Shown here piece by piece: positions 2,818 to 40,268 of a stretch of DNA of 64,000 nt. Within the stretch, counting starts at the first letter, position 1. Each line of letters begins with the position of its first letter. Source of the DNA: Terrimicrobium sacchariphilum (GTDB lineage Bacteria; Verrucomicrobiota; Verrucomicrobiia; Chthoniobacterales; Terrimicrobiaceae); the NCBI RefSeq assembly GCF_001613545.1, contig NZ_BDCO01000002.1:1798001-1862000 (forward strand), in the 5' to 3' direction. Made by a program: the position numbers and the translations under genes. The notes under the pieces were generated by a model, which saw only the letters and a list, made by a program, of their open reading frames with translations, did no database searches and was not told the DNA's origin.

Positions 2818-3822
2818 ATGCTTTTCTCCACGCGTGTGTTTTCGGCCCCTCAGGCCGGTTTTCGGCGAGTCCGGTTTTCCAGTGCAATCCTGGGGGGACT
2901 GGCCGCAATGGCCTGGCTCGGCGGCTGCGCCACGGTCTCCGATCGTCCAGGTGACGGAAAGACGGCGCGGGATGAAACGGTGAAGCTTCAGATCGTGCTG
3001 GATGCGTGGAAATTCGGTCCCGGGGTGGTGGATGGGCATCGCGGCGAGTTTACGGACAAGGCCCTGGAGTTCTACCGCGAGGCCAAGGGCCTGCCGAAGG
3101 GCTACCTGCCCGACACCTCCAACATCCAGCCGTACACCACGTACACGATCACTGCGGAGGATAAGGCCATGATCGGAACCATGGCCGAGAAACCGGAGGA
3201 GCTCGCCAAGCAGAAGCGCCTGCCGTACGTCTCCATGGCCGAACTCCTCGGAGAACGCTTTCATACCACCCCCGGTTTCCTGGCCGAACTGAATCCCGGC
3301 GTGAACATCGAGGCGTTGCCAGTTGGTGCGGTCGTCAAGGTGACGAATGTGCATCGCCCATTCCGGGTGGGGGACTATCCGTCGGCCTACCCGGCGGCGC
3401 CAAAGTCGGTCGCATCGATCCGGCACGTCTATGTGGATACAAAGACGCGAATGCTGGAGGTACGTGATAGTGGAAAGCTGATCGCAGCCTTCCCCATCAC
3501 TCCCGGCTCGGAGGAACATCCGGCTCCGTTGGGTGACTGGAAGGTCGTCAAGGCCGTGCCGTGGCCCTGGTACCGCTATGATGAGGGCGTGCTGGAGCGC
3601 GGCGAGCGCACAAAGGTTTACTACATGCTTCCTCCCGGCCCCAATAGCCCGGTGGGCATTCTCTGGACGGGCCTGAACCGCCCGGGCATCGGCATTCATG
3701 GCACGACTTCGCCGGATACGATTGGCCGTGCGGGCAGCCATGGCTGCATCCGCCTGTCCAACTGGGACGCGGCGACCTTCTACACGCTCGTGCAGAAGAA
3801 CGTGCCGGTCACGATTCGCTAA
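2818..3822 (+). CDS. L,D-transpeptidase (YkuD) lipoprotein
   Basis: Predicted periplasmic peptidoglycan cross-linking or lipoprotein-anchoring enzyme of the YkuD family, 334 residues. The N terminus has a basic segment, a hydrophobic stretch and a lipobox-like LGGC, so it is probably a lipoprotein. Residues of about 130-190 look like a degenerate LysM module (SMAELLGERF, then LNPGVNIEALPVGAVVKV). The C-terminal catalytic domain has the diagnostic GIHG and GSHGCIRLSN motifs, with the nucleophile Cys near residue 310 and its His two residues before. I chose ATG 2818 because it gives a normal signal sequence. A GTG at 2761 in the same frame would add 19 residues. It converges on the AraC gene with only 7 bp between stops. 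Confidence 0.88.
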   Translation: MLFSTRVFSAPQAGFRRVRFSSAILGGLAAMAWLGGCATVSDRPGDGKTARDETVKLQIVLDAWKFGPGVVDGHRGEFTDKALEFYREAKGLPKGYLPDTSNIQPYTTYTITAEDKAMIGTMAEKPEELAKQKRLPYVSMAELLGERFHTTPGFLAELNPGVNIEALPVGAVVKVTNVHRPFRVGDYPSAYPAAPKSVASIRHVYVDTKTRMLEVRDSGKLIAAFPITPGSEEHPAPLGDWKVVKAVPWPWYRYDEGVLERGERTKVYYMLPPGPNSPVGILWTGLNRPGIGIHGTTSPDTIGRAGSHGCIRLSNWDAATFYTLVQKNVPVTIR

Positions 3823-3829
3823 AAGAAGC

Positions 3830-4669
3830 TTAACGCGGCAGCGCTGCCCGCTGGTAGGCGCGGGGACTCATCCCCGCCTGCTTGCGAAACCAGCGGGCGA
3901 AATAATTCTGGTCGGTGAAGCCGAGCGCGTCGCAGGCCTGTTTGATCTTCGGATAGGTCTGCAGCGCACGTTGGGCGCGTTCCATCGCCACGGCGTCGCG
4001 GTATTCGCGCAGGGTGCGGCCTGTTGCCGCTTTGAAGAGGCGGTTCAGGTGATCTGGCTGGTAGCCCATCGCTCCGGCCAGCGCCGCGACCTCGGGTAAC
4101 GGCTTGTCCGCGCCGCGCAGGAGCTTGTCAAAGCGCCTGACGTATCCCGGGAATTCCCCCGTACGCACCGGCAGGATGCCCACACAGCGAAAAAGCGTGT
4201 CGAGGATGCGCAGTACCGAGGCCGCCACGATCAGTCGATGCGCGGGGGCATGCGGATCGCTCAGGCGGGTGAGCTCGGAGAGTTCGCGCCGGACCGCGCC
4301 TGCCTCGGATTGCGTCAGCCTCGCGAGGGAGACGCCGTGTTTGACCGATCCCCGCCAATCCACATCCAGCACGAGACAGAGCGGACGGCGCCCTGTGGAT
4401 TCCCGAAACGAGTGCTCACTGCGGGCAGGAAGGAAAATCACGCTGGCTGGTCCGATTTCCAGGTTGGCCCCGTCGGCGGTCATCACGCCTCGTCCACTCA
4501 GGTAGCAGAGCACCTGCGAGAAGGAATGCGAGTGCCGGGCGAGTTGGTCCACCTCGGGCAGGTGACGGTTCAGCCGCAGACGGCGAATGCGTGCGCCCGG
4601 CAGGCGAACGTCGAGTTCCTGGAAGAGGAGGGGGCGGTACGTTTTCACCGGCAACCAGAAGAAATTCAA
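3830..4669 (-). CDS. AraC-family transcriptional regulator with cupin sensor domain
   Basis: 279-residue DNA-binding regulator. An N-terminal AraC-type cupin (about residues 20-120) probably binds a sugar ligand. The C-terminal double helix-turn-helix (about 185-275) contains DALGFTDQNYFARWFRK and GMSPRAYQRAA, the classic AraC signature. It is transcribed divergently from the SDR-GH88-cupin-oxidoreductase genes, so it is the likely activator of that sugar-catabolic set. A 7-bp inverted repeat lies just upstream of its start. The ligand cannot be named from sequence. Confidence 0.9.
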   Translation of the reverse strand: MNFFWLPVKTYRPLLFQELDVRLPGARIRRLRLNRHLPEVDQLARHSHSFSQVLCYLSGRGVMTADGANLEIGPASVIFLPARSEHSFRESTGRRPLCLVLDVDWRGSVKHGVSLARLTQSEAGAVRRELSELTRLSDPHAPAHRLIVAASVLRILDTLFRCVGILPVRTGEFPGYVRRFDKLLRGADKPLPEVAALAGAMGYQPDHLNRLFKAATGRTLREYRDAVAMERAQRALQTYPKIKQACDALGFTDQNYFARWFRKQAGMSPRAYQRAALPR

Positions 4670-4675
4670 ATGGAG

Positions 4676-4697
4676 ACAAAAAGAAAGTCGTTTTTGT
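4676..4697. promoter_or_regulatory. Inverted repeat in the AraC/SDR divergent promoter
   Basis: The arms ACAAAAA (4676-4682) and TTTTTGT (4691-4697) are separated by 8 nt. They lie 7 bp upstream of the AraC start and 60 bp upstream of the SDR start. They could be an operator. AraC proteins often use direct repeats instead, so the assignment is tentative. Confidence 0.3.
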
Positions 4698-4756
4698 GCT
4701 AAATGGCGCGGGTGGGGCCATGGCGCAGGAAAAGAAGCGCGTGTAAGGTCGCCAGC

Positions 4757-5548
4757 ATGTCAACCCCCGCAGTTGTCCTCGTTACAGGTTCCAGCCGTGG
4801 ACTGGGCCGTGGAGTGGCGGAAAAGCTCGCCGCCTCTGGCTACAGTGTGGCGATCCATTACGCCAATAACAAGCAGGCCGCGGAAGAAACCGCGGAGGCC
4901 TGCCGCAAGCTTGCGCCGATTCCCGAACAGCAGTTTGCCATCGTCGGCGGCAACGTTGGTGTCGCGGCCGACCGCCAGCGCATTCTTGATGAAACGCTCG
5001 CTGCTTTCGGCCATCTCGATGCGCTCGTCAACAATGCAGGCATCGCTCCGCGCATTCGCGCCGACATTGTCGAGGCGACGGAGGAGATTTTCGACGAGGT
5101 CATCGCCGTCAATCTCAAGGGGCCGTATTTCCTGTCCCAGCTCGCCGTCCAGTATTGGCTGAAAAACCCGGGCAAGTCCCGCCTCTCGACCGGCTACAAG
5201 CTCGTCTTTGTCAGTTCGCTTTCCGCCAATACCGCCTCGGTCAATCGCGGCGAATACTGCATCTCCAAGGCCGGTCTCTCCATGGCCTCGCAGCTTTGGG
5301 CCGTGCGCCTCGCCGCCGAGGGCATCCAGGTGCTGGAGCTTCGCCCGGGCATCATGGCCACCGACATGACCTCTGGCGTGAAGGAAAAATACGACAAGCT
5401 CCTCGCCGACGGTATCGTGCCGCAGAAGCGCTGGGGTAGCCCGGATGATGTCGGCCGCGCGGTCGAGTCGATCCTGGGCGGACATTTCCCGTTCTCCTGC
5501 GGGGATGTCATCAACATCGATGGAGGCTTCCACCTTCGCAGACTTTAA
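4757..5548 (+). CDS. Short-chain dehydrogenase/reductase, probable sugar-acid reductase
   Basis: Classical NAD(P)-dependent SDR of 263 residues. The cofactor motif TGSSRGLG is at residues 10-17, NNAG at about 101-104, and the catalytic Ser at about 154 with Y167-x3-K171 (YCISK). The C-terminal DGGFHLRRL is typical of the FabG/KduD-like group. The frame opens at 4703, but ATG 4757 gives the usual MSTPAVVLVTG start. It is first in a plus-strand set with GH88, a cupin and a Gfo/Idh/MocA protein. I infer that it reduces or oxidises a uronate-derived sugar rather than an acyl-ACP. The substrate is not readable from sequence. Confidence 0.88.
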   Translation: MSTPAVVLVTGSSRGLGRGVAEKLAASGYSVAIHYANNKQAAEETAEACRKLAPIPEQQFAIVGGNVGVAADRQRILDETLAAFGHLDALVNNAGIAPRIRADIVEATEEIFDEVIAVNLKGPYFLSQLAVQYWLKNPGKSRLSTGYKLVFVSSLSANTASVNRGEYCISKAGLSMASQLWAVRLAAEGIQVLELRPGIMATDMTSGVKEKYDKLLADGIVPQKRWGSPDDVGRAVESILGGHFPFSCGDVINIDGGFHLRRL

Positions 5549-5554
5549 TTTCGC

Positions 5555-6931
5555 ATGATTACCATTCGCCAAGACCTCACGACCGCCTCGCTGGCGCCGA
5601 AGATCAAGAAACTCTGGGACGCCTCCGCTCCCAAGATCCTCTCGATCGACGCCGCGGAGAAACCCGGCGCCGCGACTCCCGTGTTCACCGTCCAGGGCAA
5701 GTACACCGCCCGCGGCTGGACCGAGTGGACGCAGGGCTTTGTCTACGGCTCCGCCATTCTTCAATACGACGCCACCGGCGATGAATCGTTTCTGACCCTC
5801 GGCCGCGACCGCACCCGCGAGCGCATGGCCCATCACATCACGCACATCGGCGTGCATGACCACGGGTTTAACAACGTATCGACCTACGGCAACCTGCTTC
5901 GCCTCATGGTTGAGGGACGTATTGCCTTTAACCAGCAGGAGAAGGATTTCTACGAGCTCGCGCTTAAGTGCACCGGCGCTGTACAGGCCGCCCGCTGGAG
6001 CCGCATCTCCAATGGCGAGGGTTATATTTACTCATTCAATGGCCCGCACTCGCTCTTTGCCGACACGATCCGTTCGCTGCGCGCCCTGGCCGTTTCCCAC
6101 CAGCTCGGCCATGTCCTCATGGGTGAGCGCGATGCCCGCATTTCGCTTATCGAGCGTCTCATTCAGCACGCTCGTACGACCTCGCAGTTCGCCGTCTTCT
6201 TCGGCGAAGGCCGCGATTACTACGACGAGCGCGGACGCGTGGCCCACGAGAGCGTATTCAATCTCAACGACGGCAACTACCGTTGCCCGAACTCCCAGCA
6301 GGGGTTCTCGCCCTTTACCACGTGGACGCGCGGTCAGGCCTGGATCATCGCCGGGTATCCCGAGCAGCTGGAATGGCTGGCGACCCGCCCGGATGCGGAA
6401 TTCGAGCCCTTTGGCGGCCGCGCCGCGGTGGAGGAGCTTTTCCTCAAGACCGCGCTCGCGAGCTGCGATCATTATATCGAAAACACGCCGACCGACGGCA
6501 TTCCGTACTGGGATACCGGCGCGCCGTTCCTGCACAAGCTCGGCGACTACATGAACCAGCCGGCTCAGATTCACAACGACTGGGAGCCGGTCGACAGTTC
6601 TGCCGCCGCCATCGCTGCTCAGGGTCTCCTCCGTCTCGGTCGCTACCTCCAGCAGAAGGGCGACGCCCGTGGCGATCGCTACTGGCAGGCGGGCCTTACG
6701 GTGGCCGATACGGTATTGGCTGAGCCGTACCTTTCCACCGACGCGAATCATCAGGGCCTCATCCTGCACTCGATCTACCACCGTCCGAACGGTTGGGATT
6801 ACATTCCGGAAGGCAGCAAGATTCCTCTGGGCGAGTCCTCCATGTGGGGTGACTACCACGCCCGCGAACTTGCGATCTATCTCCAGCGCATCATCGAAAA
6901 CAAACCCTACTACACCTTCTTCTCCCTATGA
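5555..6931 (+). CDS. Glycoside hydrolase family 88-like unsaturated uronyl hydrolase
   Basis: Probable (alpha/alpha)6-barrel enzyme that removes the unsaturated 4,5-uronic acid left by polysaccharide lyases. The 458-residue protein has GH88-like features: HDHGFNNVSTYGN, TWTRGQAWIIAGY, EPVDSSAAAIAAQGLL near residue 345, and GESSMWGDYHARELAIY near the C terminus. I see no convincing signal peptide, so it probably acts in the cytoplasm on imported oligosaccharides. It follows the SDR gene by 6 bp and overlaps the cupin gene by 4 nt (ATGA), so the genes are co-transcribed. The family call rests on motif recall and is firm at family level. The exact substrate (pectin, rhamnogalacturonan or glucuronan type) is open. 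Confidence 0.8.
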   Translation: MITIRQDLTTASLAPKIKKLWDASAPKILSIDAAEKPGAATPVFTVQGKYTARGWTEWTQGFVYGSAILQYDATGDESFLTLGRDRTRERMAHHITHIGVHDHGFNNVSTYGNLLRLMVEGRIAFNQQEKDFYELALKCTGAVQAARWSRISNGEGYIYSFNGPHSLFADTIRSLRALAVSHQLGHVLMGERDARISLIERLIQHARTTSQFAVFFGEGRDYYDERGRVAHESVFNLNDGNYRCPNSQQGFSPFTTWTRGQAWIIAGYPEQLEWLATRPDAEFEPFGGRAAVEELFLKTALASCDHYIENTPTDGIPYWDTGAPFLHKLGDYMNQPAQIHNDWEPVDSSAAAIAAQGLLRLGRYLQQKGDARGDRYWQAGLTVADTVLAEPYLSTDANHQGLILHSIYHRPNGWDYIPEGSKIPLGESSMWGDYHARELAIYLQRIIENKPYYTFFSL

Positions 6932-7383
6932 GCATCATCGTATCGGATCTCGCACAGATCGAAGGTCGCCGCTTCCCGGCCCGCCGCCGCACGCAAAATC
7001 TCGTGAATGGCGTGGCCCCGATCAAGGCGACGAACTTCAGCATGGGCAACGTCACCCTCGACCCCAAGGGCGGTCAGGTGCCGTGGCACAATCAGGAACA
7101 GGAAGAAACCTACTTCATCGTCGAGGGAACCGGTGAGTTCTGCCTTGGCACGGAGCGCCAGGTCGTGACGACCGGCCAGATGGTGTACATCCCGTCCGGC
7201 GTGTTTCACCAGCTCACCAACATCGGCGATACTCCGCTGCGCATGATCTACTGCTACGGCCCCGCCGGAGACGTGGCTCACTGGCGTCAGGAGCTTGACG
7301 GCACCCTTCCCAAGGCGGGAGTGGAAGCTCCGCCGCTGCCCGAGGGCGCATGGCCGCAGTGCACCGATAAACCCACTGCCTAA
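6928..7383 (+). CDS. Cupin-domain protein
   Basis: Small single-domain cupin of 151 residues with the two conserved metal-site motifs. Motif 1 runs from [20 protein letters not shown] and motif 2 lies in [20 protein letters not shown], together supplying the usual His/Glu/His ligands. It starts inside the stop of the GH88 gene (ATGA overlap), which suggests translational coupling. Cupins in such clusters act as sugar isomerases/epimerases or as sensors. Which applies here cannot be decided from the sequence. Confidence 0.85.
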
Positions 7384-7414
7384 GCATTACAGAAATCTCA
7401 CACCTAAACTTTCC

Positions 7415-8566
7415 ATGAAAAAACATTCCATCGGCATCATCATGAACGGCGTCACCGGACGCATGGGCACGAATCAGCACTACATCCGGTCGATCCTCGC
7501 CATTCGCAAACAGGGCGGCGTGAAAATCAGCGATGACGAAGTCATCTGGCCCGAACCCGTCCTCGTCGGACGCAGCGTGGCCAAGCTCCAGGCACTCGCC
7601 GCCATGGACAGCGGCGTCCGCTACACCACCGACCTCGACGCCGAACTCGCCAAACCCGAGAACATCATTTACTTCGACGCCCAGACGACGGGCCGCCGCG
7701 CTGACGCGGTGAAGAAGGCCATTGCCGCCGGCAAGCATGTCTATTGTGAAAAGCCGACCGCAGTTTCCACCGAGGCCGCCCTCGATCTCTATCGCGTCGC
7801 CACCAAAGCGGGTGTGAAGAACGGCGTCGTGCAGGACAAGCTCTGGCTGCCCGGCCTTCTCAAGGTCAAGCGTCTCCAGGAGCAGGGCTTCTTTGGCAAG
7901 ATCCTCAGCGTGCGCGGCGAGTTCGGTTACTGGGTGTTCGAGGGACACAACATCCCGGCCCAGCGCCCGAGCTGGAACTACCGCAAGGAAGACGACGGCG
8001 GCATCATCGTCGACATGCTCTGCCACTGGCGCTACGTCATCGACAATCTCTTCGGTGAGGTGAAATCGCTGACCTGCCTCGGCGCGACCCATATCCCGGA
8101 ACGCGTGGACGAGCAGGGCAAGACCTACAAGTGCACCGCCGACGATTCCGCCTACGCGACCTTCGAACTCGCGAACGGCGTGGTCGCTCATTTCAACTCA
8201 AGCTGGAACGTCCGAGTGCGTCGCGACGACCTCCTGACTCTCCAAATCGACGGAACCCATGGTTCCGCCGTGGCGGGTCTTCGCGAGGTGTGGATTCAGC
8301 ACTACGGCAACACGCCGAAGCCGGTTTGGAACCCCGACATCGCGCAGCCGATCGACTTCTACGGTGGCTGGTCCAAGGTGCCGGAGCAGGAAAACTACGA
8401 CAACGCCTTCAAGGTGCAGTGGGAACTTTTCCTCCGCCACATCGTGCTCGACGAGCCATTCCGCTGGACGCTGCTCGAAGGCGCAAAAGGCGTACAGATG
8501 GCCGAGCTCGGTCTGGAAAGCTGGGCCAAGCGTACCTGGCTGGACGTGCCTAAGCTTTCCGCCTAG
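7415..8566 (+). CDS. Gfo/Idh/MocA-family oxidoreductase
   Basis: NAD(P)-dependent sugar or sugar-acid dehydrogenase of 383 residues. The N-terminal dinucleotide fold has GVTGRMG near residues 11-17, and CEKPTA at about 111-116 carries the family's conserved EKP lysine. The C-terminal alpha/beta substrate domain includes [15 protein letters not shown] with its putative catalytic Asp/His. The frame opens at 7295, inside the cupin gene. ATG 7415 fits the family start and leaves a 31-bp gap. It is the last gene of the SDR-GH88-cupin group and probably completes conversion of the released uronate. Confidence 0.88.
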
Positions 8567-8608
8567 GCATCGCCCTACCGGGTTTATTGTTTTGTGGAGT
8601 GGGCCGCG

Positions 8609-8767
8609 TCAGCCGACGGGCTGCGCGGCTTCCCGCTCCTGTTTTTTATCTTTCCGTTCGTCCTTCGGGGATTCCACCTCGCGGCGAACCTCTTCGTAGA
8701 ACTCCTGGGATTCGGTTTCAGGGCCATGCAGGTCCTTCTCGGGGATATTGACGAAGTCTGCTTTCAT
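8609..8767 (-). CDS. Small highly charged hypothetical protein (52 aa)
   Basis: This short reading frame runs MKADFVNIPEKDLHG to AAQPVG and is rich in Glu, Lys, Arg and Asp with almost no hydrophobic core. AGAGG lies about 6 nt before the ATG, a good ribosome binding site, and codon use resembles its neighbours. It occupies the space between the Gfo/Idh/MocA gene (convergent) and the MocR gene (same strand, 81 bp upstream). I recognise no family. It may be a soluble, partly disordered small protein. The overlapping plus-strand ORFs have no support. Confidence 0.5.
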   Translation of the reverse strand: MKADFVNIPEKDLHGPETESQEFYEEVRREVESPKDERKDKKQEREAAQPVG

Positions 8768-8848
8768 AGCACCTCTAACGAAAGGCCGTTTCCGGCTTTT
8801 AGCCAGTGGGGGAAAGTGCTGATTGGCCTATCGGGCCGAACTCGCCAT

Positions 8849-10324
8849 TTAGTCGAGCAGTTTTGCTACGGCCCGCACGCCACGGCGGAGTTCCTCAGGC
8901 TCCACAGCGGCGAAGCCGATTTGCACGGCGTTTCGCTTCTTCCAGTTCGTTGCCCATCGTGAAAGCGGCATGAGAGCAACGCCGGCACCACGCGCGGCGA
9001 GGCAGAACTGTTCATCATCAAAACCTTTGGCCAGCCAGCCCACGGTTTGGAGGCCGCAGCGAGCGGGCTGGATTTTCAGCCGGTCGCCCCATTCCGCTTC
9101 AGCTGCGTTCGTTAGCGTGGCGAGATGCTCGGCATAGATTTGCCGCATCCGGCGGAGGTGTCGGTCGAAATGTCCCGCTCCGATAAAGTCTGCGAGTACT
9201 GCTTGCGCCAGGGGGGCGGTGAAGCGATCGAGGAGTGATCTCGCCTCGGTCATCGCGTCGACGAGATGCGGCGGCACCACGACATAGGCCATGCGCAGGG
9301 AGGGAAAGAGCATCTTGCTGAAGCTGCCGGAGAAAATCACATTGCTGTCCGGAGCGAGGCTGCGCAGGGCGGCGAGCGGGCGACCATCGAAACGGAATTC
9401 ACTATCGTAGTCGTCCTCAAAGATCCATGCGCCAGTTGAGCGAGACCATTCGATCAACTGCAAGCGGCGATTGAGAGGGAGAGCCACACAGAGCGGAAAC
9501 TGATTGGCCGGGGTCACGTAGGCGAAACGTGCGCGGGGAGCGAGAGAAAGGCCTTCCTCCACCTGGAGACCATGGTGATCCACCGGTACCGGGACGACCC
9601 GGGCTTCCGCGGCTCGGAGGATTCCTGCTGCGCCGGGGTAACCCGGGTCTTCCACCCAGGCTTCGTCTCCTGGGTCCAGGGTGAGCCGGGCGATCAGATC
9701 CAGCGCAGGCTGAATGCCCGAGAAGATGAAAATCTGCGCCGGATCGCATACGACACCCCGGGTGGCTGCGAGATGAGATGCGATTCCCTCCCGCAACGAA
9801 CGCAGACCAGCGACGTCGCCGGCCTGGAGAATTTCCCGTGTCGCCAGACGCATTCGTCGGGAAATAAGGCGGCTCCAGAGATCGGCGGGAAAGTGGCGGA
9901 CGGAAGGGCGGTTGGCCGTAAAGGCGCGGACTTCGCGTAAGGCTTCCGGCGTTTTCGGAAAGGGAGAGTTCATCAAGAGCCGGCTCCGCTGAGAGAGCCT
10001 GCCGGGAACAAACCTCTCGCTCGAGACACTTGCCTTGGGAGCTTCAAAGAAGCGATCCGGGAGGTGGCGGTGCACCGAGGTTCCAGACCCGGGGCGGCTT
10101 TCCAGATAACCCTCGGCGATCATCTGCTCAAAGACGGCGACCACCGTTCCCCGGGAAACTCCGCTATCCCGGGCGAGCGTACGGGTCGGCGGCAGTTGGG
10201 TTCCCGCCCGCAGTCGACCTTCCAAGATCGCGCTGCGGAGTTCCCGATACAGCCAGTCGCCCAGCTTTTCATTCGCCCTGGGCGGACGGATAGGGAGGGA
10301 CTGCGGGCGAGGGGTGCGGCTCAT
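8849..10324 (-). CDS. MocR/GabR-type regulator (GntR HTH fused to class I aminotransferase fold)
   Basis: 491-residue PLP-dependent transcription factor. A winged-helix GntR domain (about residues 15-85, with TRTLARDSGVSRGTVVAVFEQ) is joined to a fold-type-I aminotransferase domain (about 120-491). PLP-site features are present: FEDDYDSEFRFDG, and SGSFSKMLFPSLRMAYV with the Schiff-base lysine. The frame extends to 10399, but ATG 10324 gives MSRTPRPQSLP and leaves room for the divergent promoter. It is divergent from the AhpD-like and NmrA-like genes, and a long inverted repeat sits 8 bp upstream of its start. It likely controls itself and those two genes. Confidence 0.92.
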   Translation of the reverse strand: MSRTPRPQSLPIRPPRANEKLGDWLYRELRSAILEGRLRAGTQLPPTRTLARDSGVSRGTVVAVFEQMIAEGYLESRPGSGTSVHRHLPDRFFEAPKASVSSERFVPGRLSQRSRLLMNSPFPKTPEALREVRAFTANRPSVRHFPADLWSRLISRRMRLATREILQAGDVAGLRSLREGIASHLAATRGVVCDPAQIFIFSGIQPALDLIARLTLDPGDEAWVEDPGYPGAAGILRAAEARVVPVPVDHHGLQVEEGLSLAPRARFAYVTPANQFPLCVALPLNRRLQLIEWSRSTGAWIFEDDYDSEFRFDGRPLAALRSLAPDSNVIFSGSFSKMLFPSLRMAYVVVPPHLVDAMTEARSLLDRFTAPLAQAVLADFIGAGHFDRHLRRMRQIYAEHLATLTNAAEAEWGDRLKIQPARCGLQTVGWLAKGFDDEQFCLAARGAGVALMPLSRWATNWKKRNAVQIGFAAVEPEELRRGVRAVAKLLD

Positions 10325-34635: not shown

Positions 34636-35922
34636 GTGTCTGATCTCGTTATCTCCACGGAAAAGGTTGGCTCTGTTTCTCTACTACGTCTCGTCGGGCG
34701 TTTGGATGCCCATGGCGCAGACTTGGCCGAGCCCGCTTTTCAAGCGGTCGATCACAAGACGGCCGTGGTTATCGACCTGGGCGGTGTTCCTTACCTGAGC
34801 AGCGCAGGCATACGGCTTTTCGTCGCGCTGCAAAAGAATCTCCAGTCCCAAGGCGGCAAGCTTGTCCTGGCCGAGGTGCAGCCTTATTGCCGCGACGTGC
34901 TGAAAGTTTCCGGGCTCGATCAATTTTTTACGATTGAAGAAACGGTTACCCGGGCATTCCTGGAACTCGGGGAGAAGAACTCTGTTTTCACCCGACCGGC
35001 GGGACGGTTCGTTTATCAGCATGGAGAGGACCGTATGGGTGCCATCGAAGTGCTGGGTGACATTGGCAACGTCCTGGCTTCACGGATCACCCCGGCCCTT
35101 ATGGCCGGTAAAAAGTTCTCCTCCAAGGAATACTCGATCGGCTTGGGCGCTCTCGGTCCCAGCGATGAGGATGTCCTGCCTCTGCTCGGCGAAATGATCA
35201 CCATTGGCGGCACCATGGTCTGGCTGCCGACGGATGGCAACGATACCCCGGATTTCCTCGTTCCCCAGCAGGATAGTGACAGCGTGCTCATTCGCACCGG
35301 ATTCAATGTCTCGCTGGCGGGAGAGTTTAACGAGTATGTGGAGTTTGAAGCGGCGTCGGAAAATGGTGCGACCCTGGGTGAGATTTACGAATCCCTGATG
35401 GCTCTGGCGCGGGAGCGTCGGCCGGATTTTCGCGGCGCCCTCGGCTTGGCCATGCGGGCGGAGGTGGGAGAGCTTTACGGTTGCGGAGTCGTGAAATCTC
35501 CCATCGCGGCGAACGCTCCGGAAAACGGCAAACTCATCACCGACCCGGAGAACTACGAGAAGTGGTTCGAGTATGATCAGACTCCGCGATTGCGCGATGT
35601 CTCCGCCTTGATTTGCGGGATCGGCGTTGACCAGTCGGCTGATCTCTCGGTTTTTGATTCCAAATACCTCAACTCGGCTTTCTATATCAATCCCGGCAAT
35701 GCGGACTCTACCGGCCTGAAGCTCCATAACCACGGCGTCTGCTTCCGGCCGTTTCCGCTGGGAGAGAAACCCTGGAGCCTTGAGCGGGAAATCCAGCGTA
35801 TCGTAAACGATGGGGATTTCGTCGACATGAGACATCTCTTTGATCGCACCACGATCCAGTGGGCGCTGATCGGGGTGGTCTATGTGGAGGATTTCCGTCC
35901 GGATTCGTCGCAATCCGTCTAG
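34636..35922 (+). CDS. STAS-domain protein with large uncharacterised C-terminal domain
   Basis: 428 residues from a GTG start. Residues of about 5-108 are an anti-sigma-factor-antagonist STAS domain: VDHKTAVVIDLGGVPYLSSAGIRLFVALQK, with the Ser-Ser of the phosphorylation site intact. The remaining 300 or so residues contain GALGPSDEDVLPLLGEMITIGGT, AALGLAMRAEVGELYGCGVV-like and QWALIGVVYVEDFRPD segments and match nothing I can name. They look like a soluble alpha/beta domain, possibly phosphatase-like but without the PP2C aspartates. Its stop codon interleaves with that of the convergent SpoIIE-phosphatase gene. It is probably a partner-switching component. Confidence 0.8.
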   Translation: MSDLVISTEKVGSVSLLRLVGRLDAHGADLAEPAFQAVDHKTAVVIDLGGVPYLSSAGIRLFVALQKNLQSQGGKLVLAEVQPYCRDVLKVSGLDQFFTIEETVTRAFLELGEKNSVFTRPAGRFVYQHGEDRMGAIEVLGDIGNVLASRITPALMAGKKFSSKEYSIGLGALGPSDEDVLPLLGEMITIGGTMVWLPTDGNDTPDFLVPQQDSDSVLIRTGFNVSLAGEFNEYVEFEAASENGATLGEIYESLMALARERRPDFRGALGLAMRAEVGELYGCGVVKSPIAANAPENGKLITDPENYEKWFEYDQTPRLRDVSALICGIGVDQSADLSVFDSKYLNSAFYINPGNADSTGLKLHNHGVCFRPFPLGEKPWSLEREIQRIVNDGDFVDMRHLFDRTTIQWALIGVVYVEDFRPDSSQSV

Positions 35923-37349
35923 GCGGGAAAGTCGATTGTGAGGAAGGAGTAGTCGTCGTCCAAGGCCTCCTGCCGGCTGAAGCTACGGATCCAGGTCAGG
36001 AGCTCGTCAGGCAGCTTTTCACTGGCGCGATGGGAGTTCAGGAAGGGGAGAAACTCCGTTTCAAAATCGAGCATTTCCTCCTTCTCCCGGCGAATCTCAT
36101 AGGCACCATCACAGAAGACACAGAGCCGGGAGCCCGGGGGCACCTGTGTGTCCTCGCTATGAAATGTCGCTCCCGGCATCGCTCCAATCAGCATCCCGGG
36201 TGAGCGCAGCAGACGAGGCGCATCCTCGCCGGGGACGAAAAGTACAGCTGGAGGATGGCCTCCCGAGGTGTGGCGCAGACGGGCGGTGCCCTTGTGATAG
36301 ACGCCGTACCAGATGGTGAAGTACATGTTGTTGTGCCGCTCCATCGGAAACGTGTCGTTCAAGCCGCGGAGCACCTCGGCGGGCTCGCGGAAGTCGACAT
36401 TCTGAAGCGACATCGTGCGCATCACATTGATGGCTGCCACGGACAACAAGGCGGCGCCGACACCATGGCCGCATACGTCGAGCAGGTAGATGGCAAAGTG
36501 GTCCTCGTCGATCCAGTGATAGCCGAAGGAATCGCCGCCAAGCTCGGTGGAGGGATTATAGGCCCAGCGGATGTGAAATGGATCGTCGGTTGGCTCGGGC
36601 AGGATGCTGGAGACATAGCGGGCGGCCTCCTGGAGCTCGGATTGCAGGCGTTTGCGCGTCTCGTCGATCTGCTCGAGGTAGGCTTGCTCCTGATCTCGGA
36701 AGCGCTTTTTCTCGAGACATGCGCCGACCCGGGCGCGTAGCAGAGTGGGGTCGAAGGGCTTGGGAAGGTAATCTTCCGCTCCCGCCTCAATGCATCGGAC
36801 GACGCTTTTGAGCTCATCGAGGGCCGAGATCATGATGACAGGGATGTGGCGGAGGTTGGGATCGGCTTTGATTCGGCCCAACGTTTCATACCCATCGAGT
36901 TCCGGCATCAGGACATCAAGGAGCACGACGTCGAACGGTTTTTCCGCGAGCAAGGCGAGCGCTTCGAGCCCATTCTGTACCTCGCTGGTGCGATGCCCCT
37001 GGCGTTCCAATGTGCGCGCCAGGAGATGGCTGTTTTCCGCATTGTCGTCAACGATGAGGAGATGGCCCGTGATCGCAGGGGGCGTGACGGAGTCGACTGG
37101 TATTGACTCGTCTTGCGCGGTGATGAGTGCCGGCGGGCGCGGGGAGGGGGCATCGTCGCTGAGGGATTCCGTGATCATCTCCAGCAGGCGACGCGCGGCA
37201 TCCTCGATGCGCTGGAGGTCGCTGAGTTCCGTGATACCCTGATCCACCAGATCCTCCCGTAAAAGCTCGCCGTAGCCGATGATATGATTGATCGGCGTGC
37301 GGAGGTCGTGCCGGAGCTTCGACAGCGACGCTTTATCAAACTCGGGCAT
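35919..37349 (-). CDS. DHp-REC-SpoIIE phosphatase response regulator
   Basis: 476-residue signalling protein. Residues of about 5-60 resemble a histidine-kinase dimerisation domain (SKLRHDLRTPINHIIGY, putative phospho-acceptor H14), but no HATPase domain follows. Residues of about 96-212 are a receiver with D145 and K197. After a coiled coil (about 215-248) comes a PP2C/SpoIIE phosphatase with metal ligands D273 and D291 (GGDSFGY, LDVCGHGVGAALLS) and a terminal DDDYSFL. It probably dephosphorylates a STAS protein, likely the convergent neighbour. It is 1 bp after the single-REC gene. Confidence 0.88.
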   Translation of the reverse strand: MPEFDKASLSKLRHDLRTPINHIIGYGELLREDLVDQGITELSDLQRIEDAARRLLEMITESLSDDAPSPRPPALITAQDESIPVDSVTPPAITGHLLIVDDNAENSHLLARTLERQGHRTSEVQNGLEALALLAEKPFDVVLLDVLMPELDGYETLGRIKADPNLRHIPVIMISALDELKSVVRCIEAGAEDYLPKPFDPTLLRARVGACLEKKRFRDQEQAYLEQIDETRKRLQSELQEAARYVSSILPEPTDDPFHIRWAYNPSTELGGDSFGYHWIDEDHFAIYLLDVCGHGVGAALLSVAAINVMRTMSLQNVDFREPAEVLRGLNDTFPMERHNNMYFTIWYGVYHKGTARLRHTSGGHPPAVLFVPGEDAPRLLRSPGMLIGAMPGATFHSEDTQVPPGSRLCVFCDGAYEIRREKEEMLDFETEFLPFLNSHRASEKLPDELLTWIRSFSRQEALDDDYSFLTIDFPA

Positions 37350-37350
37350 T

Positions 37351-37740
37351 TTATTTCACCGGGGCAGCCTTGCCCACGCGGATCAACTGGGCCTCGATCT
37401 TGGCCAGCAAACGGTCAAGTTCGATCGGCTTGGTGTCATAGTCGTCGCATCCTGCCGCGAGAGCCTGTTCACGATCTCCGGCCATGGCATGAGCAGTCAG
37501 AGCGATGACCGGGATGCTTGTGGTGGCATCGTTTGCCTTGATCTGGCGCGTTGCTTCCCAGCCATCGACTTTCGGCAGGCTCATGTCCATCAGGATGACG
37601 TCTGGAGACGAGCCTGTCGCGTGCGCGATGCCTTCTTCTCCGTCTACGGCTATGACCACCTCGTATCCGCGACGGGAAAGTCTGCGGGAAAGCATGTCAC
37701 GGTTGAGTTCGTTGTCTTCCACCAGGAGGATCTTCGCCAT
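37351..37740 (-). CDS. Single-domain response regulator
   Basis: 129-residue CheY-like receiver with the acid pair E8-D9, phospho-acceptor D52 (ILMDMSLPKVDG), T/S at about 82 and K104 (YDTKPIE). There is no output domain. It lies between the hybrid kinase (20 bp upstream) and the DHp-REC-SpoIIE gene (1 bp downstream) and is probably a phospho-relay or diffusible receiver in that pathway. Confidence 0.93.
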   Translation of the reverse strand: MAKILLVEDNELNRDMLSRRLSRRGYEVVIAVDGEEGIAHATGSSPDVILMDMSLPKVDGWEATRQIKANDATTSIPVIALTAHAMAGDREQALAAGCDDYDTKPIELDRLLAKIEAQLIRVGKAAPVK

Positions 37741-37760: not shown

Positions 37761-40268
37761 CTAAACTTTGCGGGATGCTTCCAGCATCGCCGTGATGTCC
37801 CGGAGGAGCTTCTCACGGTCGACGGCGCCTTTTTGTAAAATGGAGTTCACCCGCCCGGCGAGTTGGGCACGTTCTTCCGGGGTGAGATCTTTGGCGGTAA
37901 TCACGACCACGGGGATGCCGGCGTAGTCGGGTGTCTTGCGCAGGAGGTCGAGAAACTCGAAGCCATCCATCACTGGCATCATCAGATCGAGCAGGATCAG
38001 AGCAGGCTTTTCCTCTGCGATCAGGTCGAGCGCCTCGCGACCGTTGGACGCTTCCTGGTAGCGGATTTTTTCCTTCTCGAGGATGCGGCCTATCAGCGTG
38101 CGATTGCTCTCCTCATCCTCCACGACGAGGATGTAATCCTTTGGATGTCCTCCGAGCTTTAGCAGCACCTGTCGGAGTTGTTCCTGGTTGACCGGCTTGG
38201 TGAGGAACTCCGAAGCACCCAGGCTGAAACCCAGGTTTCGATCTTGAAGCATCGTCACCATGATCACCGGGATGGAGCTTGTTGCCGGGTCGGATTTCAG
38301 TTTGCTCAGGACCGACCAGCCATCCATGCCGGGCATCATAACGTCGAGGGTGATCGCGATTGGAGGTTGCTTCCGCACGAGTTCCAGAGCATCCGCACCA
38401 CTTTGGGCCACGACCACGGAGTATCCGGATTTTTCCAGCGTCCGCTTCAGGATCTCGGCGGAATCCTGGTCGTCATCCACGATCAGGACGTTTTGCTGTT
38501 GCTGAGCCTTTGCCGGGGTCGGGGCGGCTCCCGGTGTGGTGAACTCCTGCGGCACCTTGGGAGCTGTGACCGGAAGATCAACCGTGAACTCCGTGCCCTT
38601 GCCCGGTTCGCTCGTCACGCGGATGTCCCCCCCGAGCATCGTGCAGAACTTGCGGCTGATGACAAGGCCGAGACCTGTGCCGCCGTATTTACGCGTCGTG
38701 GAAGCATCGGCCTGACTAAAGGCCTGAAAGAGCCTGCCGAGCTGTTCCTGGGTCATGCCGATGCCTGTATCCGCCACGGCAAAAAGAATGCGCTCTTCGG
38801 GTGCCGGGGTGCGTCGGACGGTCAGGGATATACGACCATTCTCGGTGAACTTTGCCGCATTGCTTAGCAGATTGAAAAGCGTCTGCCGGACCTTTGTTAG
38901 GTCGGTATGAATGATCCCGCAGTCGCTGGCGATATCGAGATCGAGCGAGTTGCCATTCTTTTCCACCAGAGGCTGTATGGTGGCCACGACATCTTCCACC
39001 ATTCCCTGGACCGCAAAATCCTCGAGGAAGAGTGTCATCTTGCCCGCCTCGATCTTCGACAGATCGAGGATGTCGTTAATCAAAGCCAGAAGGTGTTTAC
39101 CTGCCCCGCGGATTTTTTGCAGATCGGGAGTGAATTCTTTCAGGTCCATGTCCTCCGCCTCTTCGATCAGCATCTCGCTATAGCCGATGATGGCATTCAT
39201 CGGAGTGCGAAGCTCATGGCTCATATTGGCCAGGAAGGTGCTCTTCGTGCGGTTGGCAGATTCTGCGGAGTCCCGCGCCCGTAGAGCCTCCTGCCGGCTG
39301 GCTTCCGTCTGGGTGAGTGCATCGGAAAGCCGGGAGGCCAGCCAGAAGGAGACGATCAACACGCCGAGGATAATGGCGCTCGCGAGCCCGTAGACCTGCC
39401 AGATGATGGCGATCGTACGGGCCGAGACGTCAGGCAGATACATCGCCGCCACCACATCGTAGTCCCATGGCTGGAAGGTCGCGATGCGAACATGCCATTG
39501 CGACGAGAGCCTTTCGTGTTTGGCGACGCGCTTGGCGAGGGCCGAGACATTCTCACCCGCAGCATTTTGCGTATGAAAAACCACCTCGTCGTCGTGATCG
39601 AGCAGTGCGAAGAATCCATTCTCCAGCACTCCCCGGGTCTCCAGCGCATCGCGGATCGTCGAAAGCGTCTCGAGAGCGTAACCGACATAATAAATACCGA
39701 TGATCTCGCCGTTTGCCGCGCGTATTGGCTCGTACCCGGTGATGTAGGGCTTGCCCAGGATTTCCGTGACTCCGAAAAAGCTCTGCCCCTTGAGAATGGT
39801 CTCGATCACAGGACCGGTGGGGTCGAGGACGGTGCCGGTGGCGCGGGTTCCATCCTTGTGCAGGACATTCGTGCTGACACGGACAAACTCATTGCCGCGT
39901 TTCTCAAAGATCGTCGCGGTACCGCCCATGATGGCTCGCACCTTGTCCACCAATGAGGTGTCCATGCCGACGAGATGGTCTCCAAAAGACAGTCGGAGTC
40001 CCTTTGGGGTTTGTGCCAGGTGGGCCGGTCCCATTTCGGAGCCGAGCAGCTTCAGCAGGCGCATGGAGGAGTGCACCAGCTCGAGGTAAATGCGGTTGAT
40101 GGCGTCGAGCACATCATCGACATGATCCATCTTGGCCATCATCTGCTCCTCGGCCTCGTGGCGGATGTAATTCGACAATCGCTTGAAACCGACCAAGCCC
40201 GCACCCGCGACTGCGAGCGCCACAAAAAGGAACCAAAGGACAACGTTGGTGCGGAGAGAGCGTTGCAT
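37761..40268 (-). CDS. Membrane Cache-domain hybrid sensor histidine kinase with two receivers
   Basis: 835-residue sensor. A TM helix (about 8-28) and another (about 286-311) flank a periplasmic Cache3/Cache2 sensor (about 35-282, with ATIFEKRGNEFVRVSTNV and GYEPIRAANGEIIGIYYVG). HisKA spans about 340-410 with H351 (NMSHELRTPMNAIIGYSEM), and HATPase_c about 455-568 with intact N, G1 and G2 boxes. REC1 has D642 and REC2 has D761. The frame extends upstream to 40364, but ATG 40268 puts the TM helix at the N terminus. It heads the kinase-REC-SpoIIE operon. Confidence 0.92.
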   Translation of the reverse strand: MQRSLRTNVVLWFLFVALAVAGAGLVGFKRLSNYIRHEAEEQMMAKMDHVDDVLDAINRIYLELVHSSMRLLKLLGSEMGPAHLAQTPKGLRLSFGDHLVGMDTSLVDKVRAIMGGTATIFEKRGNEFVRVSTNVLHKDGTRATGTVLDPTGPVIETILKGQSFFGVTEILGKPYITGYEPIRAANGEIIGIYYVGYALETLSTIRDALETRGVLENGFFALLDHDDEVVFHTQNAAGENVSALAKRVAKHERLSSQWHVRIATFQPWDYDVVAAMYLPDVSARTIAIIWQVYGLASAIILGVLIVSFWLASRLSDALTQTEASRQEALRARDSAESANRTKSTFLANMSHELRTPMNAIIGYSEMLIEEAEDMDLKEFTPDLQKIRGAGKHLLALINDILDLSKIEAGKMTLFLEDFAVQGMVEDVVATIQPLVEKNGNSLDLDIASDCGIIHTDLTKVRQTLFNLLSNAAKFTENGRISLTVRRTPAPEERILFAVADTGIGMTQEQLGRLFQAFSQADASTTRKYGGTGLGLVISRKFCTMLGGDIRVTSEPGKGTEFTVDLPVTAPKVPQEFTTPGAAPTPAKAQQQQNVLIVDDDQDSAEILKRTLEKSGYSVVVAQSGADALELVRKQPPIAITLDVMMPGMDGWSVLSKLKSDPATSSIPVIMVTMLQDRNLGFSLGASEFLTKPVNQEQLRQVLLKLGGHPKDYILVVEDEESNRTLIGRILEKEKIRYQEASNGREALDLIAEEKPALILLDLMMPVMDGFEFLDLLRKTPDYAGIPVVVITAKDLTPEERAQLAGRVNSILQKGAVDREKLLRDITAMLEASRKV

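Follow-up and report, generated by a model that had tools for sequence, protein, structure and literature searches.

What can a dimerization and histidine phosphotransfer (DHp) domain do in a protein that carries no ATPase domain? The question is raised by a gene of Terrimicrobium sacchariphilum (Verrucomicrobiota) located in a stretch of 64,000 nucleotides (assembly GCF_001613545.1, contig NZ_BDCO01000002.1, positions 1,798,001 to 1,862,000 of the forward strand), which we call the window. The gene encodes a protein of 476 amino acids, beginning with the residues MPEFDKASLSKLRHDLRTPINHIIGYGELL, in which a HisKA-like DHp is followed by a receiver and a SpoIIE-type PP2C phosphatase domain; on the minus strand it comes after the genes of a hybrid sensor kinase and of a single-domain receiver that we name RecSD. 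The original prediction, made from the sequence of the window alone, had proposed that this DHp could accept phosphate from the neighboring hybrid kinase and act as a built-in phosphotransfer or dimerization element. Considering the domain make-up of the protein, the conservation of its histidine H14, the absence of an ATPase, the gene neighborhood, and the similarity between its DHp and that of the kinase, we lean toward reading the DHp at the N terminus as a station for histidine phosphotransfer that is built into the protein.

Domain composition of the protein

The HisKA match (residues 9-62; 33.3 bits, E 5e-8) lies above the curated Pfam cut-off of 26.9 bits, and the H-D/E-x-x-T/N-P box of the family is present as H14, D15, T18, and P19, in agreement with the HisKA-like LRHDLRTPIN context that had been pointed out for H14. 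No HATPase was found in the protein among Pfam families at E <= 1 and, because the ATP-binding HATPase_c domain that follows the DHp in histidine kinases is absent, the protein is not classed as one of them. The histidine phosphotransfer (HPt) profile PF01627 gave no match at E <= 1, which also separates the protein from the HPt family. Its combination of a conserved histidine with no ATPase domain of its own is that of the DHp-type histidine phosphotransferases (Spo0B, ChpT, PhyT), and, judged by sequence, the DHp looks built as if for that function. The SpoIIE match (residues 281-474) is accompanied by D273, D291, D414, D465, and D466, which we take to be the metal-binding aspartates of a SpoIIE/RsbU-type PP2C domain; the receiver (Response_reg, residues 98-208) has D101, D102, D145, S175, and K197, whose roles we likewise assume, and these residues appear intact. 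The predicted placement of a DHp without ATPase at the N terminus of a SpoIIE phosphatase was thus confirmed.

In the AlphaFold2 model, the DHp forms two helices (residues 6-36 and 43-62, with a block pLDDT of 79-82 for residues 11-60), and a disordered linker (residues 67-90, pLDDT < 50) separates it from the receiver, the long helix 201-249, and the PP2C part, in that order. The protein had been described as passing straight to the receiver; the receiver and then the PP2C domain do follow, with this loose linker in between. The top Foldseek match of the model was Pseudomonas aeruginosa RssB (3f7a; query TM 0.46, about 396 alignment columns), and in sequence matches to solved structures PleD came first over the receiver alone and RssB (3eq2) over the receiver plus PP2C. 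The protein therefore shares its receiver, helical linker, and PP2C domain with the RssB/HsbR type (structures 3eq2 and 3f7a), but nothing in that type matches its N-terminal DHp. HsbR is said to be a partner-switch regulator that receives its phosphate from a separate HPt protein, HptB.

The DHp is also exceptional within its own genome (4.75 Mb), in which HisKA was matched 47 times (E <= 0.1) and HATPase_c 60 times (E <= 1). Of the 47, the target DHp alone lacks a HATPase on its strand in the 800 nt that follow; the pairing used 50 of the 60 HATPase places, and the ten weak or unrelated ones that were omitted do not include any behind the target DHp. One further HisKA (L127) is backed only by a HATPase below the cut-off (22.3 bits). 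A partner-switching system would pair a STAS antagonist with an RsbW-type kinase; possible candidates for the latter are two frames elsewhere in the genome, 148 and 141 amino acids long, that match HATPase_c_2. Two HPt matches were found, neither near the window: one in a frame of 740 amino acids that also carries HATPase_c and is presumably CheA-like, the other in a frame of 165 amino acids. Among named organisms, the closest relatives are Spartobacteria bacterium LR76, at 93% protein identity, and other records labelled Verrucomicrobia, Chthoniobacterales, and Chthoniobacter.

Retention of the histidine in orthologues and in a wider family

Our orthologue set consists of the query and 17 distinct matches aligned from query residue 10 or earlier, from 17 genomes (L091 and L114 come from one). 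The original prediction had named conservation of the histidine and its flanking helix as a check, and its loss as the result that would leave only a coiled-coil dimerizer. H14 is invariant in all 18 sequences, as are R13, N21, I23, G25, E28, L30, and E32 around it, and also D44. Measured as the mean frequency of the majority residue, conservation is highest in the receiver (0.75), followed by the DHp (0.67), the PP2C domain (0.61), and the linker (0.39). The set takes in a metagenome-assembled genome (MAG) labelled Armatimonadetes and a Rubripirellula, whose box reads HDLLSLLN: the TP is gone and the histidine retained. An origin of the DHp by chance or from a truncated gene was ruled out by the conserved N terminus and by the complete receiver gene before it. 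Two MAG records titled Klebsiella pneumoniae (L044 and L051), titles that seem doubtful, contain receiver-PP2C proteins 40 and 37% identical to the target.

It is important to note that the DHp-receiver front end is not a one-off but a recurring cassette with other outputs, a point missed in the original prediction. Profile searches covered five phyla: that of the organism itself (387 genomes) and those to which a Gammaproteobacteria MAG (398), Rubripirellula (294), Okeania (244), and the Armatimonadetes-labelled MAG (201) belong. The respective tallies were at least 120, 18, 15, 26, and 23 genomes; they include receiver-only matches, the cut-off was looser for the own phylum, and they are lower bounds because only the best 7 to 14 candidates per genome were scored. 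The possibility of a local oddity was ruled out by the ATPase-less DHp-receiver proteins found in the searches of these five phyla. Once duplicates and canonical kinases were taken out, there remained 74 proteins in which a HisKA match is followed by a receiver without an intervening HATPase. Behind the receiver, 23 carry PP2C, 20 a nucleotide cyclase, 19 a later HisKA and/or HATPase, and 12 no recognised output, some of the latter ending at a contig or locus end. Entries with identical last 100 residues were dropped (the close pairs L036/L252, L091/L114, and L189/L191 stay), as were 32 rows, termed D0, that gave no hit of the HisKA model ahead of the receiver, and reading frames whose HisKA and receiver are separated by a HATPase, of which 56 were retained as kinase controls. 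Domain names in this wider family come from small profiles of our own rather than from Pfam, with which eight relatives were checked. A search of plasmids with the DHp-receiver part of the Armatimonadetes-labelled orthologue (L036) returned 100 records, 71 of them from Sinorhizobium, with identities of 45.7-47.3% among the 40 matches listed.

The histidine position of the 74 DHps is occupied by H in 69, Q in two, D in two, and S in one. The HisKA profile behind this set was built from 30 seeds, all with the histidine; with the histidine masked, the same profile adds no protein to the set and still recovers 72 of its 74 members. On inspection by eye, a DHp-like N terminus is present in at least six of the D0 rows, with the histidine in L188, L209, and L212 and without it in L270 and L273; L193 ends before the position, and adding the other five brings the count to 72 of 79. 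The histidine is thus retained where autokinase activity is impossible, which speaks for a relay and, together with its invariance in the orthologues, makes a plain coiled-coil dimerizer unlikely.

The tandem proteins bear on the same point. In 24 proteins with two DHps, counted by eye (L144 was excluded as ambiguous), the histidine is present in the first copy in 20 and in the second in eight; it is found only in the first copy in 13 pairs, only in the second in one, in both in seven, and in neither in three (exact p 0.002; like all our counts, this one is on related sequences, and the p values are indicative only). If the DHp were an element for dimerization or docking only, one could point to the helical hairpin retained in the AlphaFold2 model and to the 16 of 24 second copies that hold a hairpin-like segment without the histidine, but this difference between the copies and the invariance of H14 argue against it, and we give that explanation very little credence. 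Second copies that have lost the histidine and keep a hairpin-like segment occur in L136-L142, L104, L143, L172, L224, L266, and L267. Outside the 24, seven proteins from the cyanobacterial search (L233, L234, L241-L243, L245, and L246) have a DHp with its histidine and then a hairpin-like stretch, still further decayed, without the box.

The residues next to the histidine allow two further explanations to be weighed. The acidic residue at position +1 of HisKA proteins is reportedly required solely for kinase activity and T or N at +4 solely for phosphatase activity (PMC3510030). Among the 74 ATPase-less DHps, T or N occurs at +4 in 71 and an acidic residue (D or E) at +1 in 63, versus E at +1 in 56/56 kinase controls; the 11 proteins without an acidic residue all retain the histidine. 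Among these are seven of the eight cyclase proteins of family f16, with A, T, or S at +1 (HALRTP, HTLRTP, HSLRTP), all with the histidine. The ATPase-less DHps have thus kept the histidine and the phosphatase residue and relaxed the kinase residue. With T or N kept so widely, a phosphatase role fits equally well, and such a role, or relay and phosphatase both, is the chief rival of a pure relay. As a phosphatase or sink, the DHp would dock phosphorylated RecSD or its own receiver and speed dephosphorylation via T18, tuning or resetting the system, with H14 serving for docking or for positioning water. The relaxed +1 residue suits this explanation as well, but phosphatase activity alone does not readily explain why the histidine is kept in the first copy of tandem proteins and lost in the second; moreover, PhyT of Sphingomonas melonis was first taken for a phosphatase of PhyR, an activity that was not detected (PMC5898713). 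We consider it unlikely that the DHp is simply a phosphatase.

Phosphorylation in trans by the ATPase domain of the hybrid kinase, through mixed DHp dimers or direct docking, is the other explanation. Its basis is that the DHp of this kinase is the best match of the target DHp among 38 HisKAs of the genome (local alignment score 119; next best 86) and that the kinase-type acidic residue, D15, is present in the target; the comparison covered 38 of the 47 HisKAs, the remainder being outside the fetched loci, under the score used, or duplicates. Nevertheless, the proteins that have lost the acidic residue, most of the f16 cyclases included, keep their histidine, and position -1 is R in 62 of the 74 versus S in 55 of the 56 kinase controls, so the surroundings of the histidine have diverged from those of kinases. 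We therefore hold trans-phosphorylation to be improbable and return to the phosphotransfer station as the reading that we favor.

Partner genes and the proposed relay

The features of the locus are listed in Table 1. The stop codon of RecSD lies one base ahead of the ATG of the target gene, and the hybrid kinase gene adjoins RecSD in the relatives whose flank is long enough to show it. No HPt domain was found by Pfam in the hybrid kinase at E <= 1. The similarity of the two DHps indicates that the kinase, which had been suggested as the phosphate source, looks part of the same system, and both DHps may bind the same receivers; the direct partner of the target DHp is nonetheless likelier to be RecSD, which was missed in the original prediction and stands directly upstream in most relatives.

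Table 1. Position and supporting evidence of the features of the locus, numbered within the window.
Feature	Position	Strand	Evidence
DHp-receiver-PP2C protein, 476 aa	35919..37349	-	Pfam HisKA, Response_reg, SpoIIE; AlphaFold2 mean pLDDT 85.5, pTM 0.60
ATPase-less DHp (HisKA-like helical hairpin), residues 6-62	37164..37334	-	HisKA match, AlphaFold2 helices, no HATPase behind
H14 codon (CAC), predicted phospho-accepting histidine	37308..37310	-	Conservation in orthologues and wider family
Receiver, about residues 96-210; predicted acceptor D145 at 36915-36917	36720..37064	-	Response_reg 101.4 bits
Long helix 201-249, bridging receiver and phosphatase	36603..36749	-	AlphaFold2 model
SpoIIE/PP2C phosphatase domain, residues 281-474	35928..36509	-	SpoIIE 134.9 bits; Foldseek match RssB 3f7a
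RecSD, single-domain receiver, 129 aa; likely phosphate carrier from hybrid kinase to DHp	37351..37740	-	Response_reg 95.9 bits
Hybrid sensor kinase, Cache-HisKA-HATPase-receiver-receiver, 867 aa	37761..40364	-	Pfam
DHp of the hybrid kinase	39042..39245	-	Closest own-genome relative found for the target DHp
STAS-domain protein, 428 aa, convergent; candidate PP2C substrate	34636..35922	+	STAS 63 bits; TIGR00377 64.2 bits

RecSD adjoins the target gene in all 17 orthologues with upstream sequence. In the wider family, it is directly upstream in 62 of the 73 DHp proteins with enough sequence and, on a wider reading, in the cluster in 66 of them; the four additions are L280 and L282, where it precedes the hybrid kinase, L281, where it is just downstream, and L172, where it is about 4 kb away. 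Receiver-first proteins without a DHp have RecSD in 10 of 61 cases (p 4e-16 versus the DHp proteins, a value that is indicative only, given the relatedness of the rows and some difference in cut-off between the two counts). The cut-off was 150 bits for the controls and 90 for the DHp group, in which one accepted match fell below 150 (L095, 139 bits, at a contig end). In frames below 260 amino acids, the matches of the RecSD profile form a cluster at 150-239 bits (105 of 161) and a tail below 140, and in longer proteins all 361 matches score below 100. Nine of the ten DHp-less proteins with RecSD are receiver-cyclases (eight from the cyanobacterial phylum, plus L203) and one is a PP2C protein (L038); in L038 and L203, the match over the DHp runs across an in-frame stop. 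In L038, from Rubripirellula, the DHp-receiver profile match crosses one such stop and the receiver-PP2C frame starts behind it, which may be due either to faulty assembly or to decay of the gene.

The presence of RecSD also goes with that of the histidine: the first DHp has lost it in 2 of 66 proteins with RecSD in the cluster versus 3 of 7 without (p 0.005). A strict rule that RecSD implies a kept histidine had to be softened, given that with flanks of 1.5 kb the counts were 1/62 versus 4/11 (p 0.001) and the wider context gave the former ones. At L281 (positions 3558-10301 of that locus), one gene row contains a hybrid kinase and two copies each of RecSD and of a DHp-DHp-receiver-kinase protein; the DHp boxes of the latter read RDE and RYE, with the histidine gone from all four ATPase-less DHps.

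A hybrid kinase generally needs a histidine carrier to reach a separate response regulator, and the operon encodes no such carrier other than, perhaps, the DHp. Built into the response regulator and with RecSD as a carrier next to it, the DHp would supply this missing step. The simplest account would be a relay of four steps, hybrid kinase, RecSD, H14, and D145, ending at the PP2C domain. The hybrid kinase would autophosphorylate and then phosphorylate RecSD; phosphorylated RecSD, or a receiver of the hybrid kinase, would donate the phosphate to H14; H14 would hand it on, within one chain or between the two chains of a DHp dimer, to D145 in the protein's receiver; and phosphorylation of D145 would switch the PP2C domain. 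The likely substrate of the latter would be a phosphorylated STAS protein, the candidate being the one encoded by the convergent gene, whose stop shares the bases CTAG with that of the target gene. It scores 64.2 bits in TIGR00377 (anti-sigma factor antagonist) versus a cut-off of 53.45, and its C-terminal part of about 300 residues matches no Pfam family above cut-off. The STAS gene adjoins the PP2C gene of relatives in L031 and L033, and a homologue of the protein (25% identical, over residues 1-376) is found in the neighborhood of the distant orthologue L036.

Several observations weigh against the relay. First, the genome does contain, elsewhere, one stand-alone HPt-like reading frame, that of 165 amino acids, and the phosphatase residue at +4 is retained as widely as described above. 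Second, the link between histidine and RecSD weakens when any DHp of a protein is counted (loss in 2/66 versus 2/7, p 0.04), and two proteins with RecSD in the cluster, L259 and L276, have no histidine in either DHp; both have a later kinase module. Third, in six pairs of RecSD and receiver-cyclase (L063, from Okeania, and L225, L226, L228, L230, and L231, from the search of its cyanobacterial phylum) only 35-38 nt lie between the receivers, which leaves no room for a DHp, so it is not always needed. Finally, the relatedness of the sequences applies to every count, and the idea of the STAS substrate is drawn from adjacency in two close relatives and the distant homologue near L036.

Known systems and meaning of the cassette

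Spo0B is reportedly a DHp-type histidine phosphotransferase, kinase-like and a separate protein. ChpT is a DHp protein without autokinase activity (PMC3433190); it resembles the target in its four-helix DHp, its relay histidine, and the lack of autokinase activity, the last two here predicted from sequence, but it is free-standing and keeps an altered ATPase-like domain, whereas the target has none at all and is fused in cis to the receiver that it would serve. In S. melonis, a relay from the kinase Pak through the single receiver SdrG and the histidine of PhyT to PhyR has been shown in vitro, and the H341A variant is dead (PMC5898713). That system and the proposed one have in common a kinase, a single-domain receiver upstream of the histidine step, a histidine in a kinase-family domain, and the receiver of a partner-switching regulator. 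They differ in that PhyT is a separate membrane protein, whereas the histidine step of the target is fused to receiver and effector, with other outputs in its relatives. What sets the target apart from PhyT and ChpT is the fusion of the histidine step in cis to its target receiver, with no ATPase-like domain and with the outputs exchanged behind it. In the titles and abstract openings of the papers listed by our literature searches (subscription journals and preprints being outside their reach), nothing pointed to an ATPase-less DHp joined to both a receiver and an effector.

The exchange of outputs is illustrated by L130, from pSymB of Sinorhizobium meliloti. Its DHp-receiver cassette, which is 45.7% identical over the module to the Armatimonadetes-labelled member, comes directly after a RecSD gene; close by lies a hybrid kinase, which that record breaks into two frames. 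It differs from the target in having a nucleotide cyclase (Guanylate_cyc) as output, and it is annotated only as 'adenylate/guanylate cyclase domain-containing protein'. The same front end with different outputs beside like partner genes suggests a reusable relay part. One reading, to which we give an even chance, is that a reusable relay cassette, in which an ATPase-less DHp joined to a receiver has a RecSD and a hybrid kinase of its own as partners, arose when the DHp of this kinase was copied onto the response regulator; that the cassette takes the place of the HPt protein in several phyla, with PP2C, a nucleotide cyclase, a further kinase, or no output behind it; and that second DHp copies then decay to docking modules without the histidine. 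This decay offers a natural comparison of the relay and docking roles of one fold. If the relay is true, proteins now named only by their output could be assigned to relays that lend themselves to testing, among them one in S. meliloti, which is genetically tractable.

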